64,000 nt of DNA from Neiella litorisoli (lineage in GTDB: Bacteria > Pseudomonadota > Gammaproteobacteria > Enterobacterales > Neiellaceae): contig NZ_JACXAF010000004.1 of assembly GCF_014773395.1 (NCBI RefSeq), positions 1 to 64,000 of the forward strand, in the 5' to 3' direction. Positions 28,910 through 55,077 of the stretch are shown here, piece after piece (position 1 is the stretch's first letter; every line of letters starts with the position of its first letter). The notes under the pieces were generated by a model. It saw only the letters and a program-made list of their open reading frames with translations. It had not been told where the DNA came from and did no database searches. The position numbers and the translations under genes were made by a program.

Positions 28910-31681
28910 TCAAATTGGCCTAATTGTATCTTGGTCAACGGTGGCGTCAAAGGTATCTTGCAGCTGCCGTACGATCGGATCGTTGGCAATGGTCTGCTCT
29001 GCTTCTTTTTGCCGCTCCTCTGCGCGACGGCCCTGCGCCTGACGCGGCGTTTCTGAGTCGATACTCGCTTCATGAACGACTTCGATCACGGTGCTAAGAC
29101 CAACATAACTATGAATTCGTTCAAGCAAAATGCTGATATTGGCATCCGTTGCTAAGTGCTTTGCCTTGGTTGGAACCCGCAAACAATAGCCATCAGCGAC
29201 TGGCTCTAAAACACAATCTAATGCCAGCTGACGTTTCAGCGCGTCAAAGCCAAGCGTATCGATTAATTGCTCCCACCAACTTTTCACCTGGCCCTTCCCA
29301 GCCTCGCCCGGCGCAGCAGTAACAACGGGCACTTCAGGTTCGGCGCTGGCAGGTTGCTCAGCCACAGCATCGGTTGGCGGTTCTGTGGTTGGTTGCTCTG
29401 TTAACCACGGCGGCGGATCATCGTCAGTTGCAGGCGGCGTTGATTCTGGCAACGAGTCTGGCGCTGATTGTTCCTGAGAAACCACAGCTTGCGACGCAGG
29501 CTCAACCACTTCCGCTATCGTCGAAGAGGGAGCGTCGTTTGCTTCGGTGGCTTCGGTGGTTTGAGTGGCTTGGGTTGCATTGGCAACATCAACAGCATCA
29601 TCAACTGGCTCAGCAACCGATTGCCCATCTTGTTCAATTGGCTGCGCCGATGATTGTTGGTCATCGGCCGATGGCGCCGCAGCTTCAGGCTTTTTTACGG
29701 GAGTTGCGGCCCCCGAAGCGCGATCGGATTCCAACTTTTTGATTTGGCTGCGTAACTGGTTACGCGCCGATAACATGGCGCTAATGCCAGAAGGCGGTGC
29801 TTGTAAGCTGTTCTGTGGTGCTACTGTTTCAGTCGCCTCAGCACTTGGTTCTATATTGGTCTCAACGTTCTGCTCAGTCTTCTGTTCACTGCTCTGCTCG
29901 ACACGCGGCTCTACTGGAGAATCTTCGGCCTGCGGCGCCAAAATTGGCGCTTGAGCTGGCGTTTCGGCTAAACCAAAGTTTGCCTCAACGGGGTTAGCTT
30001 GGGGTTCAAACGAGGAGTTAAAGCCCTGATCTTCCGCCATTTCCATCACGTAAGCTTGCTGTGCTTCCAAACTCGCTAAGTCAGCAGGCTCGGCGGCGAA
30101 CATATCAGCCAAATCATCGGCCGGGTATTGCTCAGGCATTACATGTTCGGGCGGTGCCGGCGGACTGATGCTCTCGTCACTTTTGCTATCCACCTCAGCC
30201 GCCTGTGTCGCAACAGAATTCTGCTCAGGGGTAACGTCAGCCGACTCCGATGTGACTTTTTGTGCTGGAGGCAAAGCTGAATCATGACTGCCATTGGTCG
30301 ACGATTGCTCAGCTTGATTAGCAACATTGATTTCATCTGTGCTGGCTTCGGCAGTGCTCGGCTGTTGCGCAGGCTTATCAGCATCTGCTGTATCAACGCT
30401 GGCTAGCGGCGATGGTGCAGAAGAATTTTGCTCATTGCTATCGCTAACCTCAGGCACTTGTTCGACCGTTTCGCTCGTCTCAGGCGCACTACTTGCTGCA
30501 TTGGCAATTGGATGCTCAACGCGATCGGCTGAGTTAGAAACTGGAGCGACTGCAACCGCTGGCGAGACCAGCTGATGTTTGGGCAAATCAATTTGCTGCA
30601 TTGGCCGGAACATCAAGATCCGTAACAGGATCATCTCCAGAGCACTGCGGCCATCGGGTGAAAATGGTAAGTCGCGACGGCCCTGAACCAAGATCTGATA
30701 AGCCAATTGCAATTGTTCAGGCGCCCAGTGTGTCGCTAATTGCTGCAATAGTTCACGCTCAGGCTCATGATCGGCAATCGCCGCTGGCGCCAGCGCCACG
30801 AGCGATGCTCGATGAACAAGGCTTTGCAATGAACTGAGTAACTTATCGTAGTCAGGAGCAAAACCCGCGACAACGGCAACTTGCGCCATCAAGCTCTCGG
30901 CATCACCACTAAGCAAGCCTTGCACCAAAGCGCGAACATAGTCGCGATCAATCAGGCCTAACATGGCCGTGACTTGTGCATCGGTTAGCTGGCCCTGACC
31001 ATGCGCAATTGCCTGATCTGTTAGGCTCAGCGCATCACGCATACTGCCTTGCGCTGCGCGAGCAATTTGCTCAACCGCTAGCATTTCATAGCGGATGTTT
31101 TCCTCACCAAGAATAAACTGCAGCTGGCCGATGATTTGCTCGACCGTCATCGCTTTCAAGTTGAATTGCAAGCAACGCGATAAAATCGTCACCGGCAGCT
31201 TTTGCGGATCGGTAGTCGCCAGCAGGAATTTTACGTGCGGCGGCGGCTCTTCCAGAGTCTTTAATAAGGCATTAAATGAATGACGAGATAACATGTGCAC
31301 CTCGTCAATTAAGTACACCTTATATTGGCCTCGGGTCGGCCGATATTGAACGTTATCAAGGATTTCTCGGGTATCTTCGACCTTAGTGCGTGATGCGGCA
31401 TCAATTTCGATCAGATCGACAAAACGGCCCTGATCAATTTCCTGACATGCACTACACACGCCGCAAGGCTCTGCTGACTGACCTTGTTCGCAGTTTAAAC
31501 TCTTGGCCAGAATACGCCCGAGCGTTGTCTTACCAACACCGCGCGTGCCCGTTAATAAGTAAGCATGGTGTAGCCGCCCTGACTCCATGGCATTGGTTAA
31601 TGCCTGAACCACATGCTGCTGGCCAACTACCTCAGAAAACTTTGCAGGCCGCCATTTACGAGCCAACACCTGATAACTCAT
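28910..31681 (-). CDS. dnaX: DNA polymerase III subunit tau (gamma by frameshift)
   Basis: Clamp-loader ATPase (923 aa, long compared with E. coli tau at 643). Domains I-III occupy about residues 1-370: Walker A GTRGVGKTTLGR near 45, the zinc module with CEQGQSAEPCGVCSAC near 64-79, DEVHMLSRHSFNALL and SRCLQF. Residues about 380-800 are a low-complexity linker rich in Ala, Gln, Glu and Ser, which explains the extra length. The C-terminal domain, which binds polymerase core and DnaB, starts near KSWWEQLIDTLGFDALKRQL. An A AAA AAG heptamer at codons 662-664 would yield a gamma form of about 665 aa. The gene lies in the conserved order apt-dnaX-ybaB. Confidence 0.96.
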   Translation of the reverse strand: MSYQVLARKWRPAKFSEVVGQQHVVQALTNAMESGRLHHAYLLTGTRGVGKTTLGRILAKSLNCEQGQSAEPCGVCSACQEIDQGRFVDLIEIDAASRTKVEDTREILDNVQYRPTRGQYKVYLIDEVHMLSRHSFNALLKTLEEPPPHVKFLLATTDPQKLPVTILSRCLQFNLKAMTVEQIIGQLQFILGEENIRYEMLAVEQIARAAQGSMRDALSLTDQAIAHGQGQLTDAQVTAMLGLIDRDYVRALVQGLLSGDAESLMAQVAVVAGFAPDYDKLLSSLQSLVHRASLVALAPAAIADHEPERELLQQLATHWAPEQLQLAYQILVQGRRDLPFSPDGRSALEMILLRILMFRPMQQIDLPKHQLVSPAVAVAPVSNSADRVEHPIANAASSAPETSETVEQVPEVSDSNEQNSSAPSPLASVDTADADKPAQQPSTAEASTDEINVANQAEQSSTNGSHDSALPPAQKVTSESADVTPEQNSVATQAAEVDSKSDESISPPAPPEHVMPEQYPADDLADMFAAEPADLASLEAQQAYVMEMAEDQGFNSSFEPQANPVEANFGLAETPAQAPILAPQAEDSPVEPRVEQSSEQKTEQNVETNIEPSAEATETVAPQNSLQAPPSGISAMLSARNQLRSQIKKLESDRASGAATPVKKPEAAAPSADDQQSSAQPIEQDGQSVAEPVDDAVDVANATQATQTTEATEANDAPSSTIAEVVEPASQAVVSQEQSAPDSLPESTPPATDDDPPPWLTEQPTTEPPTDAVAEQPASAEPEVPVVTAAPGEAGKGQVKSWWEQLIDTLGFDALKRQLALDCVLEPVADGYCLRVPTKAKHLATDANISILLERIHSYVGLSTVIEVVHEASIDSETPRQAQGRRAEERQKEAEQTIANDPIVRQLQDTFDATVDQDTIRPI
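29641..29696 (-). other. Programmed -1 frameshift site of dnaX
   Basis: On the minus strand the in-frame codons GTA AAA AAG hold the slippery heptamer A AAA AAG (29690-29696). A one-base backward slip reads GCC and then TGA (29685-29687), ending the gamma protein two codons later, as in E. coli. Six bases after the heptamer GCTGC begins a hairpin: the inner stem GCCGATGA/TCATCGGC closes around a 7-base loop and an outer GCTGC/GCAGC can form. The position matches the E. coli site: upstream SARNQLRSQ resembles its ARQQLQR, and VKKPEAAA resembles AKKSEPAA. Confidence 0.88.
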
Positions 31682-31698: not shown

Positions 31699-32241
31699 TT
31701 ATTCGCCGTCAAACGAACACAAGTAGTGAGATTTAACGCCGATCTTTTGTAATCGTTCGATGCCGCCTAACTCTGGCAGAGCAATGACAAATGCCGCTTC
31801 GCTCACTTCTGCACCCAACTCTCGGGCTAATTGCGTGGTCGCTTCAATAGTACCGCCGGTCGCTAATAAATCATCAACCAGCAAAACCTTATCGCCGGGG
31901 CCAACAGCGCCACGATGAATTTCCAACGTGTCTTCGCCATATTCCAGCTGATAACTCTGACTGATGGTTTCGCAAGGCAACTTGCCGGGCTTACGGACAG
32001 GCACAAAGCCAAGCCCCAGGGCTAGCGCAACCGGCGCACCGAATAGGAAACCACGGGCTTCGGTGCCAATGACCTTGGTATAACCTTTATCGCGAAAAGG
32101 TTGTGCCAGCAATTCAACGGACTGATGAAATGCCGTGGGGTTTTCGAGTAACGAGGTGACATCGCGAAACAGGATGCCAGGTTTTGGGTAGTCAGGAATG
32201 GCGCGGATCGTTGCTTTGATAAAAGAATATTGTTCGCTCAT
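31699..32241 (-). CDS. apt: Adenine phosphoribosyltransferase
   Basis: Purine-salvage enzyme (180 aa; E. coli 183) joining adenine to PRPP to give AMP. The PRPP-binding motif is [17 protein letters not shown] near residue 120, and the adenine-side segment is [15 protein letters not shown] near the N-terminus. I place the start at ATG 32241 (MSEQYSFIK); the open frame begins 12 codons earlier without family support. It lies 17 bases before dnaX on the same strand, the usual arrangement. Confidence 0.95.
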
Positions 32242-32347
32242 CGCGTTATTGAGTCTGTTTAAGCAGGAAAAAATCAAGCGCCAATGGTGTCATAGATTGG
32301 CAATATCGCCAAGGGAAGCTGCTGCAATTTGCGCAGCGAACAATGTA

Positions 32348-32396: not shown

Positions 32397-32531
32397 TTAG
32401 CTTTGCCAATCCCAGCCACCGATGACCCGAACCCAAGTCAATGTTGCTACCAGCGTCGGCATTGCCAGTACAGCAACAAACGCCAAGAAGTACTTCAGGT
32501 TATACGGATCTTTGTAGTTTTCTTCAGACAT
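32397..32531 (-). CDS. Small single-helix membrane protein (44 aa)
   Basis: The reading frame begins MSEENYKDPYNLKYF, has one hydrophobic helix (about residues 15-33) and ends in VRVIGGWDWQS. GGAA lies about 8 bases before the ATG and a hairpin follows the stop. I do not recognise the family. It sits 88 bases after hvfC on the same strand, so it could be the last gene of the Hvf operon. A TATAAG box with a weak -35 in the gap would instead allow independent transcription. The balanced gene structure makes it more likely real than not. Confidence 0.6.
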   Translation of the reverse strand: MSEENYKDPYNLKYFLAFVAVLAMPTLVATLTWVRVIGGWDWQS

Positions 32532-32619
32532 AGCGAAATTCCAGCTAGTAAATAAGAATGCTTATAATTTTGAGTGCGCATCCTACCTGAAGGGCAACTA
32601 CATTGCTAGGGCCTATTAA

Positions 32620-33384
32620 CTAAGGCTGAACACGTTGTTTAACAATGCCCCGAGAACCAAGCTCAACAAGAATATCTAACAAACCCGCTTGAACATGGTC
32701 CGGTTCAACATCCGGCATCAGTGCAATTAACTGGCTACCGAGCTCAGCCACCGATAGACCTGGTGTCTCGCTAACAAACTGCAGCAAACGCGCGGTCACG
32801 GCATTAATTTCCATGAACTTTACATCGTCATCGGCATTACGATAAACCACCAAAAACACCGGTTGTGGCGCTGGCGTCTGGGGTTGGAAATCACGGCGGA
32901 TTTGATGAACTGGAAACTGGTACTGCAACACCCGAGCGGTGTCGGCAACGGCCAACGCTAAGTCATCGGCGGGTCGCCCTTGTGGTAATGGCTTGTGGAG
33001 CTGAGATGGACGGCAAAAAGCAACTTCAAATTCGATCCACTCATAGTGCGCCAACTCGACAAGAAAAGATGGATCATCTGGTTGAGGCTGACGTTCTTGA
33101 ACAAGGTAATTTAAAAACTCTTCGGCAATATCGATAAAATAGGGTGATTCAGCACGATGGTTCACCATAAAGTGACTGACTTCTCGCTCTAGCTTATCGT
33201 CGCCCCACAATCCCCACAACACCGGAAATGCTTCTTCAACAAAACCTTTGATATTGTTGAACACCAAACGCCGATAAACCGCTATCCGACGGCTTTCTAT
33301 GCCAGCTGGGGCAGGCTGATTCGGATCGCGAATGTGGGCTGCTAAGGCTTGCTGGTGCTGTTGATAATCCATGGTGTCGGTCAT
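32620..33384 (-). CDS. hvfC: HvfC/BufC-type RiPP maturation partner (DUF2063)
   Basis: A 254-residue protein. The N-terminal 100 residues are the DUF2063 putative DNA-binding-like domain (HIRDPNQPAPAGIESRRIAVYRRL is characteristic; EAFPVLWGL follows). The C-terminal part resembles the recognition module that binds the leader or signal peptide of the precursor and hands it to the MNIO enzyme. The ATG overlaps the stop of hvfB by 4 bases, consistent with a stable HvfB-HvfC complex. Function is assigned from the family (Haemophilus HvfC, Caulobacter BufC) and from gene order. Confidence 0.85.
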   Translation of the reverse strand: MTDTMDYQQHQQALAAHIRDPNQPAPAGIESRRIAVYRRLVFNNIKGFVEEAFPVLWGLWGDDKLEREVSHFMVNHRAESPYFIDIAEEFLNYLVQERQPQPDDPSFLVELAHYEWIEFEVAFCRPSQLHKPLPQGRPADDLALAVADTARVLQYQFPVHQIRRDFQPQTPAPQPVFLVVYRNADDDVKFMEINAVTARLLQFVSETPGLSVAELGSQLIALMPDVEPDHVQAGLLDILVELGSRGIVKQRVQP

Positions 33385-34250
33385 GCTGGTAACTTCCCAT
33401 ATGCTGCTGTCCCAGTTGCACTGCTCGCCAATGCTTGCTGTTGGTGTTGTTTAATCTGCGCCACTTCAGCGCATAATTCAGGCAACGGCGGAATATTGAA
33501 ATCGCGCTCCAATAAAGTCGGGAATACACCATGGTGCGCATACGCTTGCTGCAATAACTGCCAGACTGGGTCAATCACGTCTGCGCCGTGGGTATCAACA
33601 ATTAAATCAACGTCTTCATTATAGTGGCCAGCAATGTGACCATATACGATACGATTCGATGGTAAGCCTTTCAGGTACGTCAACGCATCATAGCCATGGT
33701 TCACTGAGTTGACGTAGATGTTATTGACATCAAGCAGCAAGCCACAATCAGCCTCTTCGAGCACTGTATTGATGAAGGTCAGTTCATCAAGCTGCTGGCC
33801 AGGCGCTGCGTAATAGGAAACATTTTCCAGTACAAAAGGCCGCTCAGTGATCTCCTGTACCTGTTTGATTCGGCCGACCACATGCTTAATCGCTTCCTCG
33901 GTAAATGGAATTGGCATCAAGTCATACAAGTGGCCGTCAGCACTGCAATAGCTCAAGTGCTCTGAGTAAATTTGAATATTGTGCTCATCGAGAAACCATT
34001 TGACCTGTTTGACGAAGTCAACATCTAACGGATCTAGACTACCAATGGACAATGACAAGCCATGGCAAATAAACGGGTGTTGTTCAGTTAGCTGTTTGAA
34101 CTTTTTGTTCACTTTGCCACCGAAGGGGATCCAGTTTTCAGGAGCTACTTCGAAAAAATCGATCTCCGCTGGCTTTTTGGCAATGACTTCGTCGAGCATA
34201 CGGCGCTTAAAGCCCAGCCCTGCTCCCATTGGCATTTCAAATTTGCTCAC
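33381..34250 (-). CDS. hvfB: MNIO-family RiPP maturase (DUF692)
   Basis: A 289-residue multinuclear non-heme iron oxidative enzyme with a TIM-barrel fold. Likely metal ligands are visible in CHGLSLSIG, SEHLSYC, LENVSYY, DVNNIYVN, YGHIAGH and DTHGADV, the usual order in DUF692 proteins. Family enzymes oxidise precursor cysteines with O2. HvfB of Haemophilus turns EGKCG cysteines into oxazolone/thioamide pairs that bind copper. The start is GTG at 34250 with GAGGG upstream. It lies 90 bases after the precursor gene behind a strong stem-loop, and overlaps hvfC. That it modifies the neighbouring precursor is a strong inference. Confidence 0.9.
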   Translation of the reverse strand: MSKFEMPMGAGLGFKRRMLDEVIAKKPAEIDFFEVAPENWIPFGGKVNKKFKQLTEQHPFICHGLSLSIGSLDPLDVDFVKQVKWFLDEHNIQIYSEHLSYCSADGHLYDLMPIPFTEEAIKHVVGRIKQVQEITERPFVLENVSYYAAPGQQLDELTFINTVLEEADCGLLLDVNNIYVNSVNHGYDALTYLKGLPSNRIVYGHIAGHYNEDVDLIVDTHGADVIDPVWQLLQQAYAHHGVFPTLLERDFNIPPLPELCAEVAQIKQHQQQALASSATGTAAYGKLPA

Positions 34251-34279
34251 TGCACCCTCTCTTGTTCTCTTAGTGTTGC

Positions 34280-34315
34280 TAACAATATAGCCAGCAATAT
34301 GCTGGCTATATGTTA
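34280..34315 (-). repeat. Stem-loop between hvfA and hvfB
   Basis: A 15-bp stem with one bulged A (arms 34280-34295 and 34301-34315; inner perfect part ATATAGCCAGC/GCTGGCTATAT) and a 5-base loop. No T run follows on the minus strand. Its place between precursor and maturase fits partial termination or 3'-end protection, giving more precursor than enzyme. Confidence 0.7.
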
Positions 34316-34340
34316 ACGCCCCTACTGTTATTCGGGGTTA

Positions 34341-34730
34341 TTATTTGCCGCCACAAGCACCTTCGCCGCAGCTACCTTCTTTTTTATCTTTGCCGCCACA
34401 GGCACCTTCGCCGCAGCTACCTTCTTTTTTGTCTTTGCCGCCACAGGCACCTTCGCCACAGCTACCTTCTTTCTTGTCTTTGCCGCCACAAGCACCTTCG
34501 CCACAGCTAGCTTCTTTCTTATCTTTGCCGCCACACGCACCTTCACCACAGCTGCCCTCTTTCTTGTCTTTACCGCCACAAGAGCCTTCAGGGGCCGCCA
34601 CTTGATAACCTGCAACCAAGTCGGTCAGGCCAAATGGCGATGTTTCAGCCTGCGCTGGCATCATCATTGACGAGCCGACCGCAACAGCACCAACGGCAGC
34701 AGCAACAGAAGTTTTGTTTAGTTGTTTCAT
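34341..34730 (-). CDS. hvfA: HvfA-type copper-RiPP precursor with variant EGSCG/EGACG repeats
   Basis: A 129-residue exported precursor. Residues 1-28 are a Sec signal (hydrophobic VAAAVGAVAVG, cleavage after PAQA). The SPFGLTDLVAGYQVA segment at 31-45 matches the conserved spacer of HvfA proteins. From residue 48 to the end there are six tandem units of EGSCGEGACGGKDKK. The first is shortened and the last stops after GGK, giving eleven cysteines. Known HvfA cores use EGKCG; here the middle residue is Ser or Ala. Unit 3 reads EASCG. The ATG at 34730 is chosen for the signal peptide and the TAGGTA upstream; the open frame runs 25 codons further. The mature peptide should chelate copper after modification by HvfB/HvfC. 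Confidence 0.88.
   Translation of the reverse strand: MKQLNKTSVAAAVGAVAVGSSMMMPAQAETSPFGLTDLVAGYQVAAPEGSCGGKDKKEGSCGEGACGGKDKKEASCGEGACGGKDKKEGSCGEGACGGKDKKEGSCGEGACGGKDKKEGSCGEGACGGK
34344..34589 (-). repeat. Tandem 45-bp coding repeat in hvfA
   Basis: Five 45-base units and one shortened unit encode the cysteine motifs. Copies differ at few bases, mostly third positions, which suggests recent expansion or homogenisation and possible length variation between strains. Confidence 0.9.
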
Positions 34731-34983
34731 AACAGTACCTACGTATTTTTCTTTATGTTTAATTATGGCGCCAGCTGCATGTGCCGTTGCCTCTCCAGTT
34801 ATCAAAGAAGACCCTAGCTATCGCCAAGAAATTTCACGGACAGCTAAAAAACTTCAAAATAATCTTAATCGCGAACAACAAAACTTCAATTTCAACTCGC
34901 TAGTTGGCCAGCAATTGATATGCGTCATAAGTCTGGGCAGATCGGCTTTCTATACTCGGCGCGATTGGCTGAGGCGGGTAATA

Positions 34984-35382
34984 ATGGTGACAAAACAACA
35001 TTCAGCGCAGTTAGAGCGCTTTAAAAAGACGCTTGAGAGCGAGCATCAATTGCTGATCGCTGATTTAGCGATGGCATTGAATACGATCGATACAGATAAC
35101 AGCCGCAATGTCCTTGCGACTATCAAATCACTGTCTTGCGACGATTTGGTCGAGCTGTTGGCAGATGAAGAGTGCCCCGAGGTAAATCGTACGCTAAAAC
35201 GCCTGCGTGCTGTTGATGCTTCATTGTGCCAGACTGAGCTTGGTTTATATGGCTTTTGTGCCGATTGTGAAAAACCGATCGAGCTAGAAATGTTACAGCG
35301 CGACGCAACGGTTCAGCGCTGTTATGCCTGTGATCAAATCCATCGCCATGTGCTAAAAAACAACAAGCGGATCTTACTCTGA
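34984..35382 (+). CDS. DksA/TraR-type C4 zinc-finger protein
   Basis: A 132-residue protein with a probable helical hairpin (about residues 5-85) followed by a C4 zinc finger: C92-x2-C95, 17 residues, C113-x2-C116. This is the layout of DksA-like factors that enter the RNA polymerase secondary channel. The acidic tip typical of DksA is not obvious, so the functional analogy is limited. I start at ATG 34984 with GAGGCGGG upstream; the open frame to 34714 would overlap hvfA and adds unrelated sequence. It is divergent from hvfA across 253 bases and its stop overlaps the end of the DUF885 gene. Confidence 0.75.
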   Translation: MVTKQHSAQLERFKKTLESEHQLLIADLAMALNTIDTDNSRNVLATIKSLSCDDLVELLADEECPEVNRTLKRLRAVDASLCQTELGLYGFCADCEKPIELEMLQRDATVQRCYACDQIHRHVLKNNKRILL

Positions 35383-54387: not shown

Positions 54388-55077
54388 TTAAGTTTTTGCA
54401 GGCTCGATTTGTCGTGCCAACCAATAATCCAGACTCAACCAACGTCCGGCGCCGGTAAATAACAAACTCAACAACATGGCAAAATAAATCGCCGCAAACT
54501 GAATACCATTGTTGAGGATCACCACAGGCCCTGTGGCATAGAGATAACTGGGCTTGCCATTGGCTTCAATAATGCCGCGAATACGCTCCAGCCGATCAGA
54601 AACTTCATTGCTATTGTGCAGGCTTTCGGCTGCCCCCGGAAAACCAAACCAATCGAAAAATGTCGCGACACTAGTGGCGCCATTCGCTGGCGCAATGGCA
54701 TGCCACCCATTGACCCAGTGAACCGACAGTGCTGCGACCAACATGGTAATAAGTAACGGGATCACCACCAATCGTGTCAATAAACCGAACAACAGCAGCC
54801 AGCCGCCGCCAAACTCAGCCCAACCGGCTAAAAATGCCAGTAAATCTGGGGCTGGCAACCCTAAGCCCCATTCCGGATTGCCAAACCAGGCGACGATGTT
54901 TGGCTTTGCTAAAAACTGCTCGAACATGCCTGCATCGGCATCACCAATGCGCAGCTTATTGTAGCCCGCGATGATCATCACTGGCGCCAAGATTAAGCGA
55001 AACACCAAAGGTGCCAAGAAATCAGCCAGATTCACTTTTTCTATGGTTTTCTGAGCAACTGCATACACGCTATTCAT
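54388..55077 (-). CDS. hvfX: DoxX-family membrane protein, HvfX-like
   Basis: A 229-residue inner-membrane protein, longer than ordinary DoxX proteins. Four hydrophobic segments are separated by a central hydrophilic insert (about residues 120-190; WVNGWHAIAPANGA, ERIRGIIEANG), then VVILNNGIQFAAIYFAMLLSLLFTGAGRWLSLDYW. This layout fits the HvfX group that accompanies HvfABC in Haemophilus-type copper-RiPP loci; HvfX probably acts in export, redox or copper handling of the peptide. Here it is 20 kb away from hvfABC, beside ydjA and metA. An ordinary DoxX role cannot be excluded. Confidence 0.75.
   Translation of the reverse strand: MNSVYAVAQKTIEKVNLADFLAPLVFRLILAPVMIIAGYNKLRIGDADAGMFEQFLAKPNIVAWFGNPEWGLGLPAPDLLAFLAGWAEFGGGWLLLFGLLTRLVVIPLLITMLVAALSVHWVNGWHAIAPANGATSVATFFDWFGFPGAAESLHNSNEVSDRLERIRGIIEANGKPSYLYATGPVVILNNGIQFAAIYFAMLLSLLFTGAGRWLSLDYWLARQIEPAKT

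Follow-up and report, generated by a model that had tools for sequence, protein, structure and literature searches.

An Hvf-type copper-RiPP operon with a core motif that lacks lysine throughout the genus Neiella

Introduction

For the peptides FonA, HvfA, gonophorin and bulbicupramide, thiooxazole modifications with loss of four hydrogens or binding of copper have been described (PMC13097082, PMC12538549, PMC13419390). The HvfA/HvfB/HvfC system of Haemophilus influenzae (oxazolin) combines an exported precursor, in which five-residue motifs are arranged in tandem (three AEGKCGEGKCG), with an MNIO maturase and an RRE partner, and its operon includes a DoxX-like gene, HvfX (PMC13419390). Doublets of the form E-G-x-C-G are also found in the Lys-Cys captophorins (fontiphorin, FonABC; gonophorin) and in the Buf_EGKCG/oxazolin precursors, and both are accompanied by a DUF2063 partner and an MNIO with an Asp-Phe pair and an Arg-rich loop (PMC13097082, PMC12452194). 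The MmrA/bulbicupramide system of Microbulbifer, a marine gammaproteobacterium, likewise includes MNIO and DUF2063 proteins; its two-Cys EGKCG cassettes, with five to eight Cys, are separated by Lys-rich spacers (PMC12538549).

Here we analyse an operon of this kind from the marine gammaproteobacterium Neiella litorisoli, located in a stretch of 64,000 nucleotides (assembly GCF_014773395.1, contig NZ_JACXAF010000004.1, positions 1 to 64,000), referred to below as the window. Although the operon type itself is already known, its core motif is Lys-less throughout a genus, which is what is new here. Neiella represents a natural experiment, being a Lys-free genus whose family also includes close relatives with all-Lys arrays, from which it differs at one near-invariant maturase residue while leader and partner are still similar.

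The hvf operon of Neiella litorisoli

The operon consists of three genes, all of them intact:

34341-34730, minus strand: hvfA-like precursor with a signal peptide, a leader and an array of 11 cysteines (NF050137, above cut-off)
33381-34250, minus strand: hvfB-like MNIO maturase (DUF692; HvfB model, Pfam MbnB_TglH_ChrH)
32620-33384, minus strand: hvfC-like partner (DUF2063 and NGO1945 C-terminal domain; HvfC model, Pfam)

The initial annotation had recognised an Hvf-type copper-RiPP operon, and this identification is borne out by the NCBIfam models, the same three as for the Haemophilus proteins: HvfA scores 23.9 bits against a cut-off of 19.5 with the domain model NF050137, HvfB 440.4 bits against 360 and HvfC 278.2 bits against 142. 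HvfA is thus a marginal family member by sequence model, and no Pfam family matched it; a whole-genome search with NF050137 returned zero matches anywhere, the window HvfA included, and is uninformative on absence. Also in line with the initial annotation, Pfam and NCBIfam agree on the DUF692 (MNIO) and DUF2063 genes, with MbnB_TglH_ChrH in HvfB and DUF2063 and NGO1945_C in HvfC, and the two genes do overlap, by ATGA. The start codon of hvfB is GTG, 4 nt downstream of AGAGGG. A scan for promoters and terminators gave no excess over shuffled sequences. By sequence, HvfB is closest to the solved structure 3BWW (E 1.6e-73) and HvfC to 3DEE (E 3e-11), and the HvfB of Neiella marina J221 is 88% identical to that of the window.

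A precursor array without lysine before cysteine

The precursor is 129 aa long. Its signal is of the Sec type and ends at PAQA/E (judged by eye), its leader reads SPFGLTDLVAGYQVA, and the array that follows is built on a 15-residue repeat, with one single unit, EGSCGGKDKK, and then five double units, E(G/A)SCGEGACGG(KDKK). When recounted, the residue preceding Cys is Ser in six of the 11 motifs, Ala in five and Lys in none. This agrees with the earlier description of an exported precursor with 11 Cys in six tandem units and Ser or Ala in place of Lys in every unit, with the corrections that the first unit has a single Cys and that the six Ser motifs include one EASCG. Since Lys is absent from all 11 motifs, we class the array as a Lys-less variant rather than as a Lys-Cys member. 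It differs in this respect from the Lys-bearing motifs of Haemophilus HvfA, of the Lys-Cys captophorins and of the Microbulbifer cassettes, the first and last of which also have fewer motifs or Cys. Compared over its full length with an all-Lys HvfA from the same family, the window protein shows 76% identity.

The array is under strong purifying selection. Comparison of its five double units gives a pN/pS of 0.03 (34 synonymous versus 4 nonsynonymous differences in total across the 10 unit pairs), and the Ser and Ala codons vary between units while the encoded residue is constant. The low pN/pS implies that the array did not arise by chance and that its Ser/Ala form is maintained. A search at E up to 10 yielded a single HvfA-like match in each of three Neiella genomes, and the window maturase is the one PF05114 match in its genome; the Lys-less array is therefore the likely substrate of the window HvfB.

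Distribution of lysine in related maturase–precursor pairs

The rarity of this core was assessed in a survey of 285 loci, comprising the best 80 hits of a named-genome scan together with relatives and samples of the order and class (for the latter two, a subset of the hits), so that the sample is weighted towards relatives. After removal of duplicates and of fragments shorter than 230 aa, 275 distinct maturases were retained, 229 with a precursor and 46 without; the latter belong to other MNIO subfamilies, lie at contig ends or have other precursor types. A precursor had to contain at least three Cys-Gly and at least two [EDQK]xxCG motifs, a rule that favours the motif class and not Lys. Looser rules (183/222 loci) admitted false precursors at L031, L157 and L220, which were rejected.

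Lys precedes every CG cysteine in 167 of the 229 pairs, 60% to <100% of them in 42, and <60% but more than zero in 14. The six Lys-free pairs are those of the window, L003 and L004, all from Neiella, and L181, L219 and L270. Enzymes whose arrays have less than 60% Lys (n = 20) are called Lys-poor below and the remaining 209 Lys-rich. Such retention of Lys in most of the family suggests that this residue does something; in vitro an enzyme tolerates its loss (PMC13097082), yet most natural arrays keep it.

Lys loss extends to all three Neiella species, and none of 26 doublet and three solitary cysteines in the genus is preceded by Lys. The window species has Ser or Ala in its place, N. marina has Ser, and the third species has mostly Gly; the irregular array of the latter has 7 Cys preceded by a mixture of Gly, Asp, Asn and Ser. 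The precursor of L003 is identical in sequence to that of N. marina J221 (L032). All seven family genomes examined contain hvfB, and in the four from outside Neiella (L005, L006, L019 and L020) every detected motif contains Lys, which places the loss most likely on the branch leading to the genus.

The initial annotation took EGSCG/EGACG to be an unusual core, and the homologue search supports this: among 2046 motifs outside Neiella, EGSCG occurs 36 times, EGACG three times and EASCG six times. The Lys-less variant is thus real and uncommon, but Ser before Cys is not unique to Neiella. A case in point is the gammaproteobacterial precursor at L181 (genome G196), which like that of the window lacks Lys, with Ser in 6/6 motifs, EGSCGEGSCGEGSCG. 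The maturase at this locus is only 59% identical to that of the window and has Arg15 and Ala17, so that its Lys loss appears to be independent. Mapped on the maturase tree of the 229 pairs, the <60%-Lys label requires 17 parsimony changes, indicating that Lys-poor arrays are of multiple origin. Further Lys-poor or Lys-free gammaproteobacterial arrays, with Ser, Asn or a mixture before Cys, are L181, L202, L176, L171, L173 and L270. Among the papers listed by a search of main texts for these motifs, and judged by titles and the beginnings of abstracts, only one concerns MNIO RiPPs, and EGACG is an engineered variant there (PMC12668002, preprint of PMC13097082). Judged by titles and the beginnings of abstracts, the one literature match for Neiella with copper concerns a sea-urchin disease.

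Outside Neiella, Lys precedes the first Cys of doublets in 793/823 cases, the last Cys in 806/823 and solitary Cys in 259/340. Lys is thus kept in 96-98% of doublet versus 76% of solitary motifs, and this better retention may point to the doublet as the favoured unit.

Residues 15 to 17 of the maturase and substrate specificity

In an alignment of the 229 maturases, conservation among the 209 Lys-rich enzymes reaches at least 97% in 74 columns. The three Neiella maturases match 73 of these, including the catalytic-base Asp (Asp250 in the window HvfB, where the next residue, Phe251, is also kept). The sole departure is at column 15, where Arg is replaced by Lys; column 16 remains Arg, and Arg at column 17 is confined, among the 229, to the three Neiella maturases. 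Columns 15 and 16 form an Arg pair in the Lys-rich enzymes (205/209 and 206/209, respectively), and in the alignment with 3BWW the Lys15-Arg16-Arg17 of Neiella HvfB stands opposite Arg-Arg-Asp. Relative to the Lys-Cys captophorins, Lys stands in place of the first Arg of the loop, and Arg is found at residue 17. The conservation of columns 15 and 16 as an Arg pair leads us to infer that column 15 corresponds to Arg15 of FonB. In the published model of FonB, Arg15 and Arg16 flank Glu1 of the substrate and Phe250 contacts its Lys3 and Gly5; Asp249 is required for modification, and replacement of Arg15 by Ala widens the tolerance at substrate position 1 (PMC13097082).

The absence of Lys had led the initial annotation to expect a maturase of relaxed or shifted specificity. 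Such an enzyme is not required: FonBC, the natural substrate of which is EGKCG, processes the double Ala variant EAACGEGACG in vitro and accepts Arg and Thr at position 3, while Phe or Glu variants severely impair processing (PMC13097082). Small residues should accordingly suit an ordinary enzyme, Ser by extension from the variants named in that source. What remains of the expectation is that Neiella HvfB is indeed changed, at Arg15 and at residue 17, and it is possible that these changes alter specificity. One could envisage that replacement of Arg15 by Lys and of Glu/Asp17 by Arg re-tuned the loop holding the motif, such that the enzyme prefers a small residue at position 3, perhaps with poor processing of EGKCG; a co-evolutionary adjustment of this sort we regard as doubtful, and the same reserve attaches to the broader proposal that Neiella made a natural, genus-wide switch away from Lys-Cys recognition, with the changed loop favouring Lys-free EGSCG/EGACG.

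Several observations are consistent with such re-tuning. Arg15 is the sole near-invariant column altered, and it is altered in all three species; Lys15 is present in 5/20 Lys-poor versus 4/209 Lys-rich maturases, and an acidic residue 17 in 3/20 versus 152/209, with Arg17 confined to Neiella. When the Lys-poor trait was simulated on the tree, P was 0.0025 for Lys15 and 0.0005 for non-acidic residue 17, the latter being the floor of 2000 simulations; the location of FonB Arg15 and Arg16 beside the substrate points the same way. However, in a scan of 1673 splits the top association, 0.392, was close to the median of the null maximum, 0.373, and not significant scan-wide. Among seven supported independent pairs, about one changed in the same direction for Lys15 and about four for non-acidic residue 17 (median p 1 and 0.125, respectively). 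Moreover, Arg15 is retained in 15/20 Lys-poor maturases, and Lys15 is seen alongside Lys-rich arrays as well (L126, L197, L269 and L280). The part assigned to FonB Arg15 relates to position 1 and not 3, and the equation of column 15 with that residue is itself drawn from conservation. The covariation of residue 17 with Lys, although strong in raw counts, mostly tracks an order-level split and is no more than suggestive. The maturases of L171 and L173 also have Lys15.

Alternatively, the ordinary enzyme may simply tolerate change at position 3, such that a substitution arising in one repeat was carried across the others by unequal exchange or conversion, neutral drift and homogenisation leaving an equivalent product. 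We give this account about an even chance. It fits the in vitro tolerance of FonBC, the repeated origin of Lys-poor arrays, the weaker retention of Lys in solitary than in doublet motifs outside Neiella, and the coexistence of four different residues in the array of the third Neiella species. It is less easily reconciled with the general retention of Lys, with its loss from 26/26 doublet cysteines in Neiella, precisely where Lys is most conserved elsewhere, and with the constancy of Ser and Ala across units despite differing codons (pN/pS 0.03).

Proposed function of the operon

By analogy with characterised relatives, we consider it quite probable that the operon, of the Hvf/captophorin type, gives rise to a modified, exported Cu(I)-binding peptide. 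HvfA would be synthesised with its Sec signal and leader, and the leader would be bound by the RRE domain of HvfC. HvfB, a predicted multinuclear iron enzyme, would then act with HvfC to convert Cys of the repeats to 5-thiooxazoles, with four hydrogens lost at each; all 11 Cys are expected to be modified. Once exported, the peptide would bind Cu(I) and buffer excess copper outside the cytoplasm. In Neiella small residues have replaced the Lys that precedes each of these Cys, with leader, Glu at position 1, Cys-Gly, spacing and operon retained. Loss of Lys could lower turnover or copper affinity, or alter the fate of the peptide.

A quite different possibility is that the operon is decaying or that its Cys are unmodified, the array binding metal as plain thiols, as the irregular 7-Cys array of the third Neiella species might be taken to indicate. 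This we judge very improbable, given the three intact genes in the window, the strong purifying selection inside the array, the retention of the conserved maturase columns and the presence of hvfB in every one of the seven family genomes. The modified copper-binding peptide is accordingly our preferred reading.

Genomic neighbourhood

The operon is flanked by the following features:

28910-31681: dnaX, downstream of hvf
31699-32277: phosphoribosyltransferase (apt by similarity), downstream of hvf
32397-32531, minus strand: 44-aa ORF with a single TM segment, downstream of hvfC
34714-35382, plus strand: ORF with a DksA/TraR C4 zinc finger, divergent and adjoining hvfA; its true start is probably further in
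beyond the zinc-finger ORF, upstream of hvfA: DUF885 protein
54715-55011, minus strand: DoxX-family match on the same contig, at a distance of roughly 20 kb from hvf

DoxX proteins are frequent, though not universal, companions of Hvf-type operons. The operon of the window contains no DoxX gene; of two DoxX matches genome-wide, one is on another contig and the other is the distant match at 54715-55011, in contrast to Haemophilus, where HvfX is part of the operon (PMC13419390).

By setting the start of the interval at 32397, the initial annotation had taken in the 44-aa ORF, which it left undescribed. No Pfam or NCBIfam family matched this ORF. It belongs to a family of one-helix membrane proteins of 38-44 aa with the consensus FKDPFN..YF, spread through the order and usually found beside apt-dnaX or carA-carB. 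In 206 loci the sequence extends at least 350 nt past hvfC; 78 of these have a homologue after hvfC in the same orientation, and apt is present in 72 of the 78. Across 394 genomes of the order, the ORF was matched in 142 (E up to 0.01, the weakest being chance hits inside larger ORFs) and a close hvfB in 92. In 16 chosen loci from genomes without a close hvfB, the ORF is present and hvfB absent from the locus; an apt homologue occurs in 11 of the 16 and carA/carB-like genes in four (carA Pfam-checked in one). Being commoner than close hvfB, found without it and accompanying apt, the ORF is not part of hvf, and we rejected it as a fourth gene of the operon, assigning it to the apt/dnaX block. 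Among 340 genomes of the class, the convincing matches were those of the window and of genome G012. Between the window and N. marina the ORF shows 14 synonymous and two nonsynonymous differences, indicative of strong purifying selection, but over 430 more distant pairs the median pN/pS is 0.56.
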